NCBI RefSeq assembly: GCF_002214545.1
Contig: NZ_CP015105.1
Location: forward strand, 496,001-560,000
DNA length: 64,000 nucleotides
From: Thermococcus thioreducens
GTDB taxonomy: Archaea; Methanobacteriota_B; Thermococci; Thermococcales; Thermococcaceae
Direction: 5' to 3'
A program made the position numbers and the translations under genes. Of the stretch, positions 14,360 to 59,875 are shown piece by piece; the first letter of the stretch is position 1, and every line of letters begins with the position of its first letter. Below the pieces are notes generated by a model. That model did no database searches. It saw only the letters and a program-made list of their open reading frames with translations, and had not been told where the DNA came from.

Positions 14360-15415
14360 ATGCTCGTCTGCTCACGTTGCGGTAGGGAGTACCCGGAGAC
14401 GTTTCGTCTGACCTGCGACTGCGGCGGAACCCTGCTAGTCAGGCGGAACCACTTCAGCTTCTTCGGTAGCCTTCTCCCGTACCTGGACATGCGCCGCTAC
14501 CTCAACTCCCTCCCCGTGGGCGGGAACTACCTCCCCCCGGCGGTGCCCGCTATCACCCCGACCGCTGCACTCCAGATAGGTCATGTCATTGGACTGTTCA
14601 AGCTCGAATACCTCCATCCGAGTGGCTCCTTCAAGGATCGTGGGACCTACGTCACCGTGGCAAAGCTCATGGAGGAAGGGATCCGGGAGGTCGTCCTCGA
14701 CAGCTCCGGCAACGCGGCCCTGAGCATGGCCTTGTACTCCCTTCCGGCCGGGATAACCACCCACCTATTCGTCTCATACAATACGATGCCGGAGAAGCTC
14801 TCCCTTCTGGAGGGGCTTGGGGCGGTACTCCACTTCGTCGACGGTGACAGGATGGCCGTTCACGAAATGGCGGTGGGGTTTGCAGAGCGCGAGGGGGTAA
14901 CCTACGTCTCCCACTGGCTCAACCCATACTTCATCGAGGGTACAAAAACGGTGGCCTTTGAGACATACGAGCAGGTCGGTGTTCCCGACTACGTTTTGGT
15001 CCCCACTGGGAGCGGAACGCTCTTCCTCGGCCTCTGGAAGGGCTTCACGGAATTAAAGGATATGGGCGAGATCGCGGAGCTCCCCCGGCTCGTTGCTGTT
15101 CAGGCTTCAGGTTTTGAAAGTCTCTGCGAGCGTTCGCCCCTCACCAACAGCCTGGCTGATGGGATAGCGATTCCGGAACCTCCGAGGATTGATGAAATGA
15201 AGAGGGCGATCAAGGAAACAAACGGTCTCTGTGTGAGCATTGAAGGGCCCGAAACGGTGGAAGCATTGAACTGGCTCAAGCGGGCGGGTTTTCTGGTTGA
15301 GCCTACCTCTGCCGTTGTCCTCGCGGCTCTGTGGAAGCTAGTCGAGAGCGGCGAAATTCCGGATGGTTCGAGGGTTCTTCTCCCCCTCACCGGCTCGGGC
15401 CTCAAACTGACCTAA
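14360..15415 (+). CDS. Threonine synthase (PLP-dependent, fold type II)
   Basis: The 351-residue protein starts with a small zinc-ribbon-like segment (CSRCGREY, then CDCGG), then a fold type II PLP domain. The Schiff-base lysine lies in PSGSFKDRG (about residue 96), the phosphate-binding loop in PTGSGTLFLG, and the LPLTGSGLK tail ends the protein. Threonine synthase converts O-phosphohomoserine to threonine; related enzymes such as cysteate synthase look similar. ATG 14360 follows GGGTGGTAC. A second threonine-synthase-like protein at 58541 has Arg at the lysine position, so this copy is the better enzyme candidate. Confidence 0.8.
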   Translation: MLVCSRCGREYPETFRLTCDCGGTLLVRRNHFSFFGSLLPYLDMRRYLNSLPVGGNYLPPAVPAITPTAALQIGHVIGLFKLEYLHPSGSFKDRGTYVTVAKLMEEGIREVVLDSSGNAALSMALYSLPAGITTHLFVSYNTMPEKLSLLEGLGAVLHFVDGDRMAVHEMAVGFAEREGVTYVSHWLNPYFIEGTKTVAFETYEQVGVPDYVLVPTGSGTLFLGLWKGFTELKDMGEIAELPRLVAVQASGFESLCERSPLTNSLADGIAIPEPPRIDEMKRAIKETNGLCVSIEGPETVEALNWLKRAGFLVEPTSAVVLAALWKLVESGEIPDGSRVLLPLTGSGLKLT

Positions 15416-55953: not shown

Positions 55954-56565
55954 TTGGCTGAAAAGCTAAAGGGAACGACTACGGTCGGCATTGTGTGTAA
56001 GGACGGCGTCGTCCTAGCGGCGGACAGGAGGGCATCGCTCGGCAACATGGTGCTTTCGGGGAACGTCACAAAGGTATTCCAGATAGACGACCACTTGGCC
56101 TTGGCCGGTGCCGGAAGCGTTGGGGACATCCTCTCACTCGTCAGGCTTCTGAGGGCCGAGGCTAGACTGTACAGGGCCAGGGTCGGGAACGAGATGGGTG
56201 TGAAGGCCCTTGCTACGCTGACTTCTAACATCCTCCACGGCAGGAGGTTCATGCCGTACTTTGGGTGGTTCCTCATAGCGGGCTACGATGAGAGGCCCGG
56301 ACTGTACTCGATAGACATGGCCGGCGGCGTTACCGAAGACAGATTCACCGCTGCCGGTTCTGGAATGGAGTTTGCCTTCGCGGTTCTTGAGGATGGGTAT
56401 AGCGAGGATATGGAGCTTGAGGGGGGTATCAGACTTGCCCTCAAGGCGATAAAGGTAGCCACAAGGCGCGATGTTTTCACGGGGGATGGGGTAACCCTCG
56501 TTACCGTCACGGAAGACGGTTACAGGGAGCTGACCAAGGAGGAGATGGAAGCTCTTCTAAAGTGA
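55954..56565 (+). CDS. psmB: Proteasome beta subunit
   Basis: The 203-residue precursor has a seven-residue propeptide (MAEKLKG) and then Thr8, the catalytic nucleophile, in [19 protein letters not shown] with Lys and Asp in place. Further conserved parts are [21 protein letters not shown] and [14 protein letters not shown]. It forms the proteolytic rings of the 20S proteasome. TTG 55954 is the start, with GGGGTG at six bases. The aCPSF1 gene follows closely on the same strand. Confidence 0.95.
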
Positions 56566-56575
56566 GGTGGTGGCT

Positions 56576-58522
56576 TTGATAAGGAGAGAAACTTTCGTTG
56601 ATGACATTCTACGTGACATAAAAGCTGTAATAAGCCAGATGGTTCCGAGGGAGGCTAGGATAACTGAAGTTGAATTCGAAGGGCCAGAGCTTGTAATCTA
56701 CGTCAAGAACCCCGAAGCCATAATGCAGGACGGGGAGCTCATCAAAAACCTCGCCAAGGTTTTAAAGAAGCGCATCAGCGTCCGTCCAGACCCTGAAGTC
56801 CTCCTTCCTCCGGAGAGGGCAGAGGAGATGATAAAGCAGATTGTTCCTGCGGAGGCCGAGATAACCAACATAAGCTTTGACCCGTCCGTCGGTGAGGTTC
56901 TCATAGAGGCCAAAAAGCCGGGCCTGGTTATAGGAAAGAACGGCGAAACGCTTCGCTTGATAACCCAGAAGGTTCACTGGGCGCCTCGCGTCATAAGGAC
57001 ACCACCGCTTCAGAGCCAGACCATATACTCGATAAGGCAGATACTTCAGGCGGAGGCTAGGGACAGGAGGAAGTTCCTCCGCCAGGTTGGCCGGAATATC
57101 TACCGCAAACCCGAGCTAAAAAGCGAGTGGATTAGGATAACCAGCCTTGGGGGCTTCCGTGAGGTTGGTAGAAGTGCCCTTCTAGTCCAGACTAACGAAA
57201 GTTATGTTCTCGTGGACTTCGGTGTTAACATAGCCGCCCTCCGCGACCCCAAAAAGGCATTTCCGCATTTTGACGCGCCCGAGTTCAGGTACGTTCTTGA
57301 TGCTGGGTTACTCGATGCGATCATCATAACCCACGCCCACCTCGACCACAGCGGAATGCTCCCTTACCTCTTCCGCTACAAGCTCTTCGACGGCCCGATA
57401 TACACGACGCCGCCGACGAGGGATCTGATGGTGCTCCTCCAGCAGGACTTCATCGAGATACAGCAGATGAACGGCGTCGAGCCTCTCTACCGGCCGAGGG
57501 ACATCAAAGAGGTCATCAAGCACACGATAACCCTCGACTACGGCGAGGTTCGCGACATCGCTCCGGACATGAGGCTCACCCTCCACAATGCAGGCCACAT
57601 TCTCGGGTCGTCGATAGTCCACCTCCACATAGGCAACGGGCTTCACAACATAGCCATAACCGGAGACTTCAAGTTCATCCCTACGAGGCTCTTTGAACCC
57701 GCTGTAAGCAGGTTCCCCCGTCTGGAGACCCTCATCATGGAGTCCACCTACGGAGGAAGCAACGACTACCAGATGCCGCGTGAAGAAGCCGAGAAGCGCC
57801 TTATAGAGGTCATCCATCAGACGATTAGGAGGGGAGGTAAGGTTCTCATACCTGCCATGGCGGTCGGCAGGGCACAGGAGATAATGATGGTTCTCGAAGA
57901 GTACGCCCGGGTCGGCGGTATCGAGGTGCCCATATACCTCGATGGAATGATATGGGAGGCCACTGCAATCCACACGGCCTATCCAGAGTACCTCAGCAAG
58001 CATCTGCGCGAGCAGATATTCCACGAGGGCTACAACCCGTTCCTCAATCCGGTTTTCAAGAGCGTCGCCAACTCCCGTGAGAGGCAGGATATCATAGACA
58101 GCGGAGAGCCGGCAATAATCATCGCCACTTCGGGTATGCTCGTCGGCGGGCCGAGCGTGGAGTACTTCAAACAGCTCGCTCCCGACCCGAAGAACAGCAT
58201 GATCTTCGTCAGCTACCAGGCCGAGGGAACGCTTGGAAGACAGGTTCAGAGGGGACTCAGGGAGATACCGCTGGTCGGAGAGGGTGGAAAGACCGAGGTC
58301 GTCAAGGTCAACATGCAGGTTCACACTATCGACGGCTTCTCCGGCCACGCCGACAGGAGAGAGCTCATCAGCTATATAGCCAGGCTGAGACCGAGGCCTG
58401 AGAGGGTGATAACCGTCCACGGAGAACCACACAAGTGTCTTGACCTGAGCACCAGCATCCACAAGAAGTTCGGTATCTCAACGCGCGCCCCGAACAACCT
58501 GGATGCAATAAGGCTTAAGTGA
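56576..58522 (+). CDS. fttA: aCPSF1/FttA transcription termination factor and ribonuclease
   Basis: The 648-residue protein has two N-terminal KH-type domains (IRRETFVDDILRDIKAVISQ onward; GKNGETLRLITQK near 125), a metallo-beta-lactamase domain with ITHAHLDHSGMLPYLFR (about 250) and a beta-CASP domain, then DGFSGHADRRELISYIARLR and the HGEPHKCLDL motif. aCPSF1 cleaves RNA at U-rich 3' ends and terminates archaeal transcription. TTG 56576 has GAGGTGGT at best spacing; GTG 56567 and 56570 are alternatives. The neighbour psmB is the usual arrangement in Thermococcales. Confidence 0.95.
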   Translation: MIRRETFVDDILRDIKAVISQMVPREARITEVEFEGPELVIYVKNPEAIMQDGELIKNLAKVLKKRISVRPDPEVLLPPERAEEMIKQIVPAEAEITNISFDPSVGEVLIEAKKPGLVIGKNGETLRLITQKVHWAPRVIRTPPLQSQTIYSIRQILQAEARDRRKFLRQVGRNIYRKPELKSEWIRITSLGGFREVGRSALLVQTNESYVLVDFGVNIAALRDPKKAFPHFDAPEFRYVLDAGLLDAIIITHAHLDHSGMLPYLFRYKLFDGPIYTTPPTRDLMVLLQQDFIEIQQMNGVEPLYRPRDIKEVIKHTITLDYGEVRDIAPDMRLTLHNAGHILGSSIVHLHIGNGLHNIAITGDFKFIPTRLFEPAVSRFPRLETLIMESTYGGSNDYQMPREEAEKRLIEVIHQTIRRGGKVLIPAMAVGRAQEIMMVLEEYARVGGIEVPIYLDGMIWEATAIHTAYPEYLSKHLREQIFHEGYNPFLNPVFKSVANSRERQDIIDSGEPAIIIATSGMLVGGPSVEYFKQLAPDPKNSMIFVSYQAEGTLGRQVQRGLREIPLVGEGGKTEVVKVNMQVHTIDGFSGHADRRELISYIARLRPRPERVITVHGEPHKCLDLSTSIHKKFGISTRAPNNLDAIRLK

Positions 58523-58540: not shown

Positions 58541-59875
58541 ATGCAGGTTCGATGTCCAAGCTGTGGGAGGCTCTACTCCTCCTTTATTCCCCCAACGTGC
58601 TCCTGCGGTGAGCCGCTCAGGATAGCGTACGACTATGAATCCGTGGACGTTTATTCATGGAAAGGGAGAAGGCCCGGTGTCTGGAAGTATCGGGAGCTTC
58701 TTCCCGATGTGGACCGTGTCATCAGCCTGAACGAGGGCGGAACGCCCCTTCTGAAGGCTAAACTCGGTGAGGAACTCGGTCTGAACGTCTTCATCAAAGA
58801 CGAGACGAGGAATCCCACTGGCTCGTTCAGGGACAGGCTCATCACTGTGGCGGTCTCCTACGGCATTCCCCACGCAGAGAACGGTTTTGTTGTGGCCAGC
58901 AACGGAAACGCCGCCGCTTCCCTTTCGGCCTATGCCGCCCGGGCTGGGAAGCCTGCTTACACAGTCGTTCCAAAACTGGTTGAGCAGGGGAAGCTGAACC
59001 AGATAGTGGCTTTCGGTGCGAAGGTGATCCGCTACGGTGAGAGCGTTGATGAGGGCATAAGCTACGCGGAAGGATTGGCTGAGGGCAAGGGGCTCTACAA
59101 CGTCACCCCCGAGAGCAACCTCGTCGGTTTGGAGGGGCAGAAGACGCTCGCCTTTGAGCTGTGGGAGGAGCTGAACCCGACCCACGTGGTGATCCCGACG
59201 GGAAGTGGAAGCAACCTCTACAGCATCTATAAGGGCTTTACCGAGCTCATGGAGATAGGTGCCATTGAGGAAATGCCCAGACTCATAGCGGTGCAGGCGG
59301 AGAAATGCTCCCCCATAGCGAGTGAGGTTCTGGGCGTCGAGCCGAGGGCGGAGCCGACCAAGGCGCTGGCGCTCTACGTGAAGAACCCCGTGATGAAGGA
59401 GCTGGCTTTGAAGGCCATAGGCGAGACCGACGGGACCGCTGTGCTAGTCGGCGAGGATGAGCTCGACCTTGGGCAGAGGTTGCTCGCCGGGGAGGGGATC
59501 TTTGCGGAGTACGCTTCGGCAGTGATAGTTCCTGCCCTGCTCAAGCTGGCCGAGGAAGGTTACTTTGAGAGGGACGACAGAATAGCGCTTATCGTGACCA
59601 GCTCTGGCCTCAAGGGACACTACGCTGAGACACGGGAAAAGTTCAGCATAGGGGGAACAAAGCTTGATATACTGAGACTTCTCAGCGGGAGGGTCATGTA
59701 CGGCTATGAGATATGGGAGGCCCTTGAGAAGCCGCTCAAGTATCAGGCGGTTTACCAGCACCTCCGTGAGCTTGAGAGTCTGGGCCTAATAGACGAATCC
59801 CATAGAAGGGGCAGGCGCGTCTACTACAGGCTGACGGATAAAGGGCGCAGGTTCCTGGAGACACTATCTGAGTAA
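58541..59875 (+). CDS. Threonine-synthase-like protein fused to PadR-type winged helix
   Basis: The 444-residue protein begins with a zinc-ribbon-like segment (CPSCGRLY, CSCGE) and a fold type II PLP domain (about 25-355) with VIPTGSGSNLYSIYKG and VTSSGLKGHYA. The usual lysine motif S-F-K-D-R is S-F-R-D-R here (Arg97), so the PLP lysine is absent from that place. A C-terminal winged helix (about 368-444: LDILRLLSGRVMYGYEIWEA, YQHLRELESLGLID, YYRLTDKG) resembles PadR regulators. It may be a PLP- or ligand-sensing regulator or an altered enzyme; both are inference. The normal copy lies at 14360. Confidence 0.75.
   Translation: MQVRCPSCGRLYSSFIPPTCSCGEPLRIAYDYESVDVYSWKGRRPGVWKYRELLPDVDRVISLNEGGTPLLKAKLGEELGLNVFIKDETRNPTGSFRDRLITVAVSYGIPHAENGFVVASNGNAAASLSAYAARAGKPAYTVVPKLVEQGKLNQIVAFGAKVIRYGESVDEGISYAEGLAEGKGLYNVTPESNLVGLEGQKTLAFELWEELNPTHVVIPTGSGSNLYSIYKGFTELMEIGAIEEMPRLIAVQAEKCSPIASEVLGVEPRAEPTKALALYVKNPVMKELALKAIGETDGTAVLVGEDELDLGQRLLAGEGIFAEYASAVIVPALLKLAEEGYFERDDRIALIVTSSGLKGHYAETREKFSIGGTKLDILRLLSGRVMYGYEIWEALEKPLKYQAVYQHLRELESLGLIDESHRRGRRVYYRLTDKGRRFLETLSE

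Follow-up and report, generated by a model that had tools for sequence, protein, structure and literature searches.

What does a protein do that folds like threonine synthase, carries arginine where the enzyme has its PLP lysine, and ends in a DNA-binding domain? This question is raised by a gene near the end of the 64-kb window, the stretch of Thermococcus thioreducens DNA that we analyzed (Table 1). We refer to its product as the regulator, in anticipation of the reading that we prefer. Pfam places a PALP domain at residues 61 to 353 (2e-65) and a PadR domain at residues 377 to 440 (2.8e-10; 40.5 bits against a cut-off of 27). In the AlphaFold model (mean pLDDT, 89.7), a threonine-synthase fold is joined to a well-predicted winged helix, and threonine synthases were its top solved-structure matches in Foldseek. 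The winged helix thus resembles the PadR family (PF03551) in scoring over the Pfam cut-off, and differs from it in what follows. PadR proteins have a C-terminal helical dimerisation domain, whereas the regulator lacks one; its chain ends at residue 444, one residue past the last helix of the winged domain.

Table 1. Features of the regulator gene, its neighbors, and the predicted operators in the source genome (positions within the window unless given as contig positions)
Feature	Position	Strand	Remarks
Proteasome beta subunit (presumed), upstream neighbor	55954-56565	+	
KH/beta-CASP RNase aCPSF1 (presumed), upstream neighbor	56567-58522	+	
PALP-PadR fusion regulator gene	58541..59875	+	444 aa, ATG start; annotated family NF004170/PRK05638 'threonine synthase'
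N-terminal zinc ribbon	58541..58630	+	Invariant C5, C8, C20, C22; alignment
Fold-type-II PALP domain, threonine-synthase-like	58721..59599	+	aa 61-353; Pfam, AlphaFold model, Foldseek matches to threonine synthases
Arg97, codon AGG	58829..58831	+	PLP Schiff-base lysine position (Lys61 of T. thermophilus threonine synthase)
Asn123	58907..58909	+	PLP-shell residue kept (Asn87 of T. thermophilus enzyme)
Gly196	59126..59128	+	Replaces phosphohomoserine-phosphate-binding Arg of enzymes (Arg160, T. thermophilus)
PLP-phosphate loop GSGSN	59201..59215	+	aa 221-225; kept
Disordered linker between sensor and DNA-binding domains	59612..59647	+	aa 358-369; pLDDT <50
PadR-like winged helix	59657..59869	+	aa 373-443; Pfam, AlphaFold model
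Putative recognition helix, QAVYQHLRELESL	within 59657..59869	+	aa 401-413, in the winged helix; conserved from Thermococcales to Thermoproteota
Predicted operator at S-component gene	contig 2047594-2047611		Source genome
Two tandem predicted operators at pdxS	contig 276619-276636, 276643-276660		Source genome; weaker sites

The surroundings of the gene say little about its function. In Thermococcales, it lies downstream of genes for what we take, from their sequences, to be a proteasome beta subunit and the RNase aCPSF1, and these neighbors are uninformative. Only 18 bp separate the end of the aCPSF1 gene from the regulator start (gene starts were taken from a simple ORF caller), so the three genes are probably co-transcribed.

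An earlier note on this DNA had pointed to arginine at the PLP lysine, to a paralog that keeps the lysine, and to a PadR-like C-terminal domain in the same protein. All three observations stand: residue 97 is Arg within NPTGSFRDR, and the paralog whose open reading frame starts at 14360 reads SGSFKDR. Is this arginine a peculiarity of one genome? Orthologues are present in roughly half of Thermococcus, in all the other genera of Thermococcales, and in many Thermoproteota. Every Thermococcales orthologue compared in which the stretch is intact has Arg at this position, which rules out a frame or sequencing artefact, and so do almost all relatives in Thermoproteota that are fused to a winged helix; the exceptions are Lys in L135 and L120 and Met in L073. 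In a second Thermoproteota subfamily of fused proteins, the position is occupied by L, I, M, T, V, or F. Because the position varies in this way, Arg is not a new catalyst, and a role as a special catalytic substitute can be discarded; the trait that these proteins share is the absence of Lys. By comparison, Lys is kept in all 17 to 18 unfused paralogs compared. The fused relatives form one clade (SH-aLRT, 93), which is widespread in Thermococcales and Thermoproteota and is marked by the non-Lys state. The two fused proteins that do have Lys, L135 (genome G023) and L120 (genome G316), are each a lone branch inside the Arg clade and look like natural reversions. One of them has its operators (described below) intact. 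Lysine, whether kept or regained, can thus coexist with operators, and its loss is not strictly required. We also considered a viral or plasmid origin of the family: no relative was found in viral contigs, and plasmid matches were all below 60% identity and mostly annotated as threonine synthase.

We then asked which ligand the pocket could still hold. The residues that surround PLP are conserved throughout the fused group: N123 (the Asn of SxGN), the phosphate loop G221-S222-G223, and T353 (the Thr of TGxGLK). The residues N154, S155, R160, and T88 of the Thermus thermophilus enzyme, which we take to hold the phosphate of the substrate phosphohomoserine, are lost from the fused group, and the regulator has Pro190, Glu191, Gly196, and Ala124 in their place. 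A retained PLP shell combined with a dismantled substrate site favors PLP, and not phosphohomoserine, as the ligand. The regulator therefore shares with threonine synthase (ThrC; TIGR00260, NF004170/PRK05638) the zinc ribbon, the PALP fold, and the PLP-shell residues. It differs in lacking the Schiff-base Lys and the phosphohomoserine-binding residues, in its additional winged helix, and in scoring under the TIGR00260 cut-off.

In Thermoproteota, the neighborhood of the regulator gene is more telling. The gene for an ECF transporter S component is its most conserved neighbor (25 of 40 loci). In the Arg subfamily, this gene lies downstream on the same strand; the second subfamily mostly has it in divergent orientation. 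Five loci of the divergent kind (L107, L109, L110, L112, and L116) encode fused regulators with Leu, Ile, Met, or Val at the Lys position. The S component belongs to Pfam family PF07155. Sequence and profile searches of the PDB gave a single relative, HmpT (4hzu; 1.9e-19), and the compound recovered from that protein was identified as pyridoxamine (PMC4860826). When we mapped the HmpT/PdxU pocket onto the archaeal S components by alignment, four of its six conserved residues were identical (E41, Y120, N140, and Q143), whereas H84 is replaced by Lys and Q87 by Glu. These data suggest that the S component carries B6; PF07155 S components can transport other vitamins. Within Thermococcus, the S component is present in all 35 regulator-bearing genomes compared to 14 of the 26 others. 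Its gene lies directly behind a class-III aminotransferase-like gene (∼448 aa) in the Thermococcales loci L161 to L196. The absence of PdxS was considered as an explanation for the transporter: PdxS is missing in 37 of 41 regulator-bearing Thermoproteota versus 9 of 13 controls, a difference that is suggestive only.

Does the DNA in front of the S gene carry a site that such a regulator could recognize? In Thermoproteota, the intergenic stretches ahead of the S gene have a palindrome in common that was first picked by eye; its core is AAGTT-NN-AACTT, and L098, for example, has AGTAAAGTTATAACTTTACT. The same core lies just 5' of the S gene in regulator-bearing Thermococcus and in 0 of 11 genomes without the regulator. 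A matrix built from Thermoproteota sites only separated the Thermococcus S genes with a regulator from the 11 without (P ∼ 3e-6, a value that ignores phylogeny and, the genomes being related, overstates their independence). Scanning 489 kb of loci with the matrix gave 29 matches of at least 14 bits, 16 of them at the S gene. The site is weak or absent at the S gene in some regulator-bearing genomes (L170, L178, L197, L199, and L200). In the second Thermoproteota subfamily, a different palindrome, TATAAGCT-NN-AGCTTATA, lies between the regulator and the S gene in three intergenic regions. Within the 64-kb window, we found no operator beyond those expected by chance.

An exact, class-wide genome search for the palindrome led to a second target that had not been sought, pdxS. 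In this search, ten Thermococcales genomes had the palindrome 28 to 43 bp before pdxS, and in a single genome from Thermoproteota the distance was 9 bp; more broadly, the palindrome lies ∼24 to 43 bp ahead of pdxS in regulator-bearing genera and close ahead of the gene in two Thermoproteota. All 30 regulator-bearing Thermococcus genomes with a readable pdxS start have the site, versus 2 of 23 genomes without the regulator. One of these two matches comes from an assembly that is 73% complete, and the PdxS encoded there clusters with that of a regulator-bearing genome; the other is A+T-rich, weak, further upstream, and chance-like. On the PdxS tree, at least three changes are required to explain which genomes have the regulator, and the match between operator and regulator is therefore not a single event. 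Three lines of support do not depend on the initial choice by eye: the matrix test across phyla, the controls lacking a regulator, and the unplanned matches at pdxS. The pdxS palindromes of the source genome directly follow the TATA box (TTTATATTCAAG...). The position just after the TATA box is that of archaeal repressor sites.

On the basis of these results, the protein is likely to sense PLP and to repress transcription of the genes for vitamin B6 synthesis and uptake. This reading builds on what can be seen in the sequences, namely, the architecture, the lost lysine, the kept PLP shell, and operators that co-occur with the regulator. In the mechanism that we propose, the threonine-synthase-like domain would have lost its chemistry and kept its cofactor pocket (the phosphate loop, the Asn meeting O3', and the Thr meeting the ring nitrogen). 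With Arg instead of the lysine that locks PLP in place, PLP or a close B6 vitamer would bind reversibly and report its own concentration; loss of the lysine would thus make the cofactor usable as a gauge. When PLP is plentiful, the C-terminal winged helices of a dimer would grip palindromes of the form (T)TNAAGTT-NN-AACTTNA(A) immediately downstream of the TATA box. The bound dimer would silence both B6 synthesis, through the PLP-synthase gene pdxS and pdxT behind it, and B6 uptake, through the gene for the HmpT-like ECF S component; falling PLP would release repression. In the source genome, pdxS and the S-component gene are the predicted targets. Repression is the simplest reading because the site, just 3' of the TATA box, takes up the place that TFB and RNA polymerase have to occupy. 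PLP would be the natural ligand and corepressor, since synthesis and uptake would then be shut together.

Could the same regulon respond to a different ligand? Another vitamer or precursor, such as pyridoxal, pyridoxamine, or a thiamine pyrimidine like HMP, is conceivable: hydroxymethyl pyrimidine was the first proposed substrate of HmpT-family transporters, and some S genes have thiL-like or AIRS-family genes nearby. The operators at pdxS, however, point to B6, and the loop that binds the phosphate of PLP has been retained, so we regard a different ligand as unlikely. With regard to these neighbors, the S gene adjoins the thiL-like gene in Pyrococcus-like genomes (L197 to L199), and an AIRS-family protein is encoded beside the S gene in most of nine loci (L098, L099, L101, L107, L113, L114, L121, L122, and L125). 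This protein falls between HypE, SelD, and ThiL, was below all cut-offs in the one case tested, and may possibly be a B6- or cofactor-related kinase.

If PLP repression via the palindrome is accepted, is the PALP-PadR protein the factor that acts there? The pairing of regulator and operator is a prediction from sequence, and the B6 regulon could be real with another transcription factor on the palindrome, the PALP-PadR protein doing something else, such as carrying PLP. Three observations make this quite improbable. The operator tracks the presence of the regulator gene across Thermococcus, the regulator gene adjoins the operator-bearing target in Thermoproteota, and the regulator has a conserved winged helix, whose putative recognition helix (QAVYQHL) is conserved in both of the phyla with the operator. 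We therefore infer that the regulator binds these operators.

The earlier note had read the protein as a retired PLP enzyme that serves as the sensor of a transcription factor, with threonine-pathway metabolites as its signal. The first part agrees with our data; the threonine pathway as signal or target is not supported by them. A degenerate domain that binds threonine or phosphohomoserine and controls thr genes would suit the closest fold, threonine synthase, and a Lys-type thrC is divergent to the regulator in eight Thermoproteota loci, with hom nearby in three. This association is confined to one Thermoproteota subclade, however, and the Arg, Asn, Ser, and Thr that bind phosphohomoserine are gone. 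The predicted operators are at pdxS and the HmpT-like transporter gene, and the scan of 489 kb of loci gave no match of at least 14 bits at thrC or at the regulator's own start. We found no report in the open-licence literature that supports a threonine sensor, and we consider one highly improbable. ThrRS, mevalonate kinase, and fibrillarin genes were also examined as meaningful neighbors and set aside, as they occur in a few loci and are not conserved. In L048, L104, and L118 (Thermoproteota), the regulator adjoins an archaeal-type ThrRS-like gene and a gene for a PP-loop ATPase, both presumptive names; they are not a co-directional pair with the regulator in L048 and L104 and are thus probably not co-regulated with it.

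That the protein is still an enzyme, in which Arg97 or another Lys supports PLP chemistry and the winged helix is a side feature, is hardly credible despite an intact fold in the AlphaFold model and the NCBI name of threonine synthase for the whole family (NF004170), as position 97 varies freely among fused members (R, L, I, M, T, V, and F), the substrate residues are gone, and the protein scores 141.3 bits on the curated thrC model TIGR00260 (cut-off, 167 bits), which two (L002 and L003) of the three Lys-type paralogs in the same genome pass.

The PLP-sensing repressor that we favor has a close parallel in Bacteria. In the MocR group, PdxR regulates both pdxST and B6 transport (PMC5320631), the same functions that we predict for the archaeal regulator, and in both cases a sensor derived from a PLP enzyme is fused to a winged helix. 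The differences lie in the parts. PdxR and MocR proteins have a fold-type-I aminotransferase-like domain behind an N-terminal GntR winged helix, whereas the archaeal regulator has an unrelated fold-type-II PALP domain and a PadR-like winged helix at its C terminus, the reversed domain order that the earlier note had recognized. In contrast to PdxR, the archaeal regulator has also lost the Schiff-base Lys, and its predicted repressor site follows a TATA box. Archaea are reported to have no MocR proteins (PMC5320631). The best explanation is that the regulator is an archaeal functional counterpart of PdxR and not a MocR member. In open-licence papers, we found no description of a B6 regulator in Archaea, and none of a threonine synthase with a PadR domain or winged helix, of PRK05638, or of archaeal pdxS regulons.

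On balance, we lean toward a broader view. Two archaeal phyla would have in common a hitherto unrecognized family of B6 repressors, wrongly annotated as threonine synthases. By losing the Schiff-base Lys, a fold-type-II enzyme would have become a reversible PLP gauge; PdxR-like control would have evolved independently in Archaea, from a different PLP fold, and an archaeal B6 transporter would thereby be identified. For most species, B6 transporters are described as unknown (PMC9997740). Regulator protein, candidate operators, and predicted target genes come together here as one concrete proposal, and the key step in the conversion of enzyme to sensor is visible: one lysine lost together with a winged helix gained.

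Our reading also corrects a curated family name, NF004170 'threonine synthase', that is used in archaeal genome annotation. The regulator scores 753.6 bits on NF004170/PRK05638 against a curated cut-off of 421, and it appears to be the fused family without Lys that this model describes. The name is likewise doubtful for the Lys-type paralog at 14360-15415 (PRK08329 'threonine synthase'), because Phe replaces the phosphohomoserine-binding Arg in that protein (NPYFIEGTKT).
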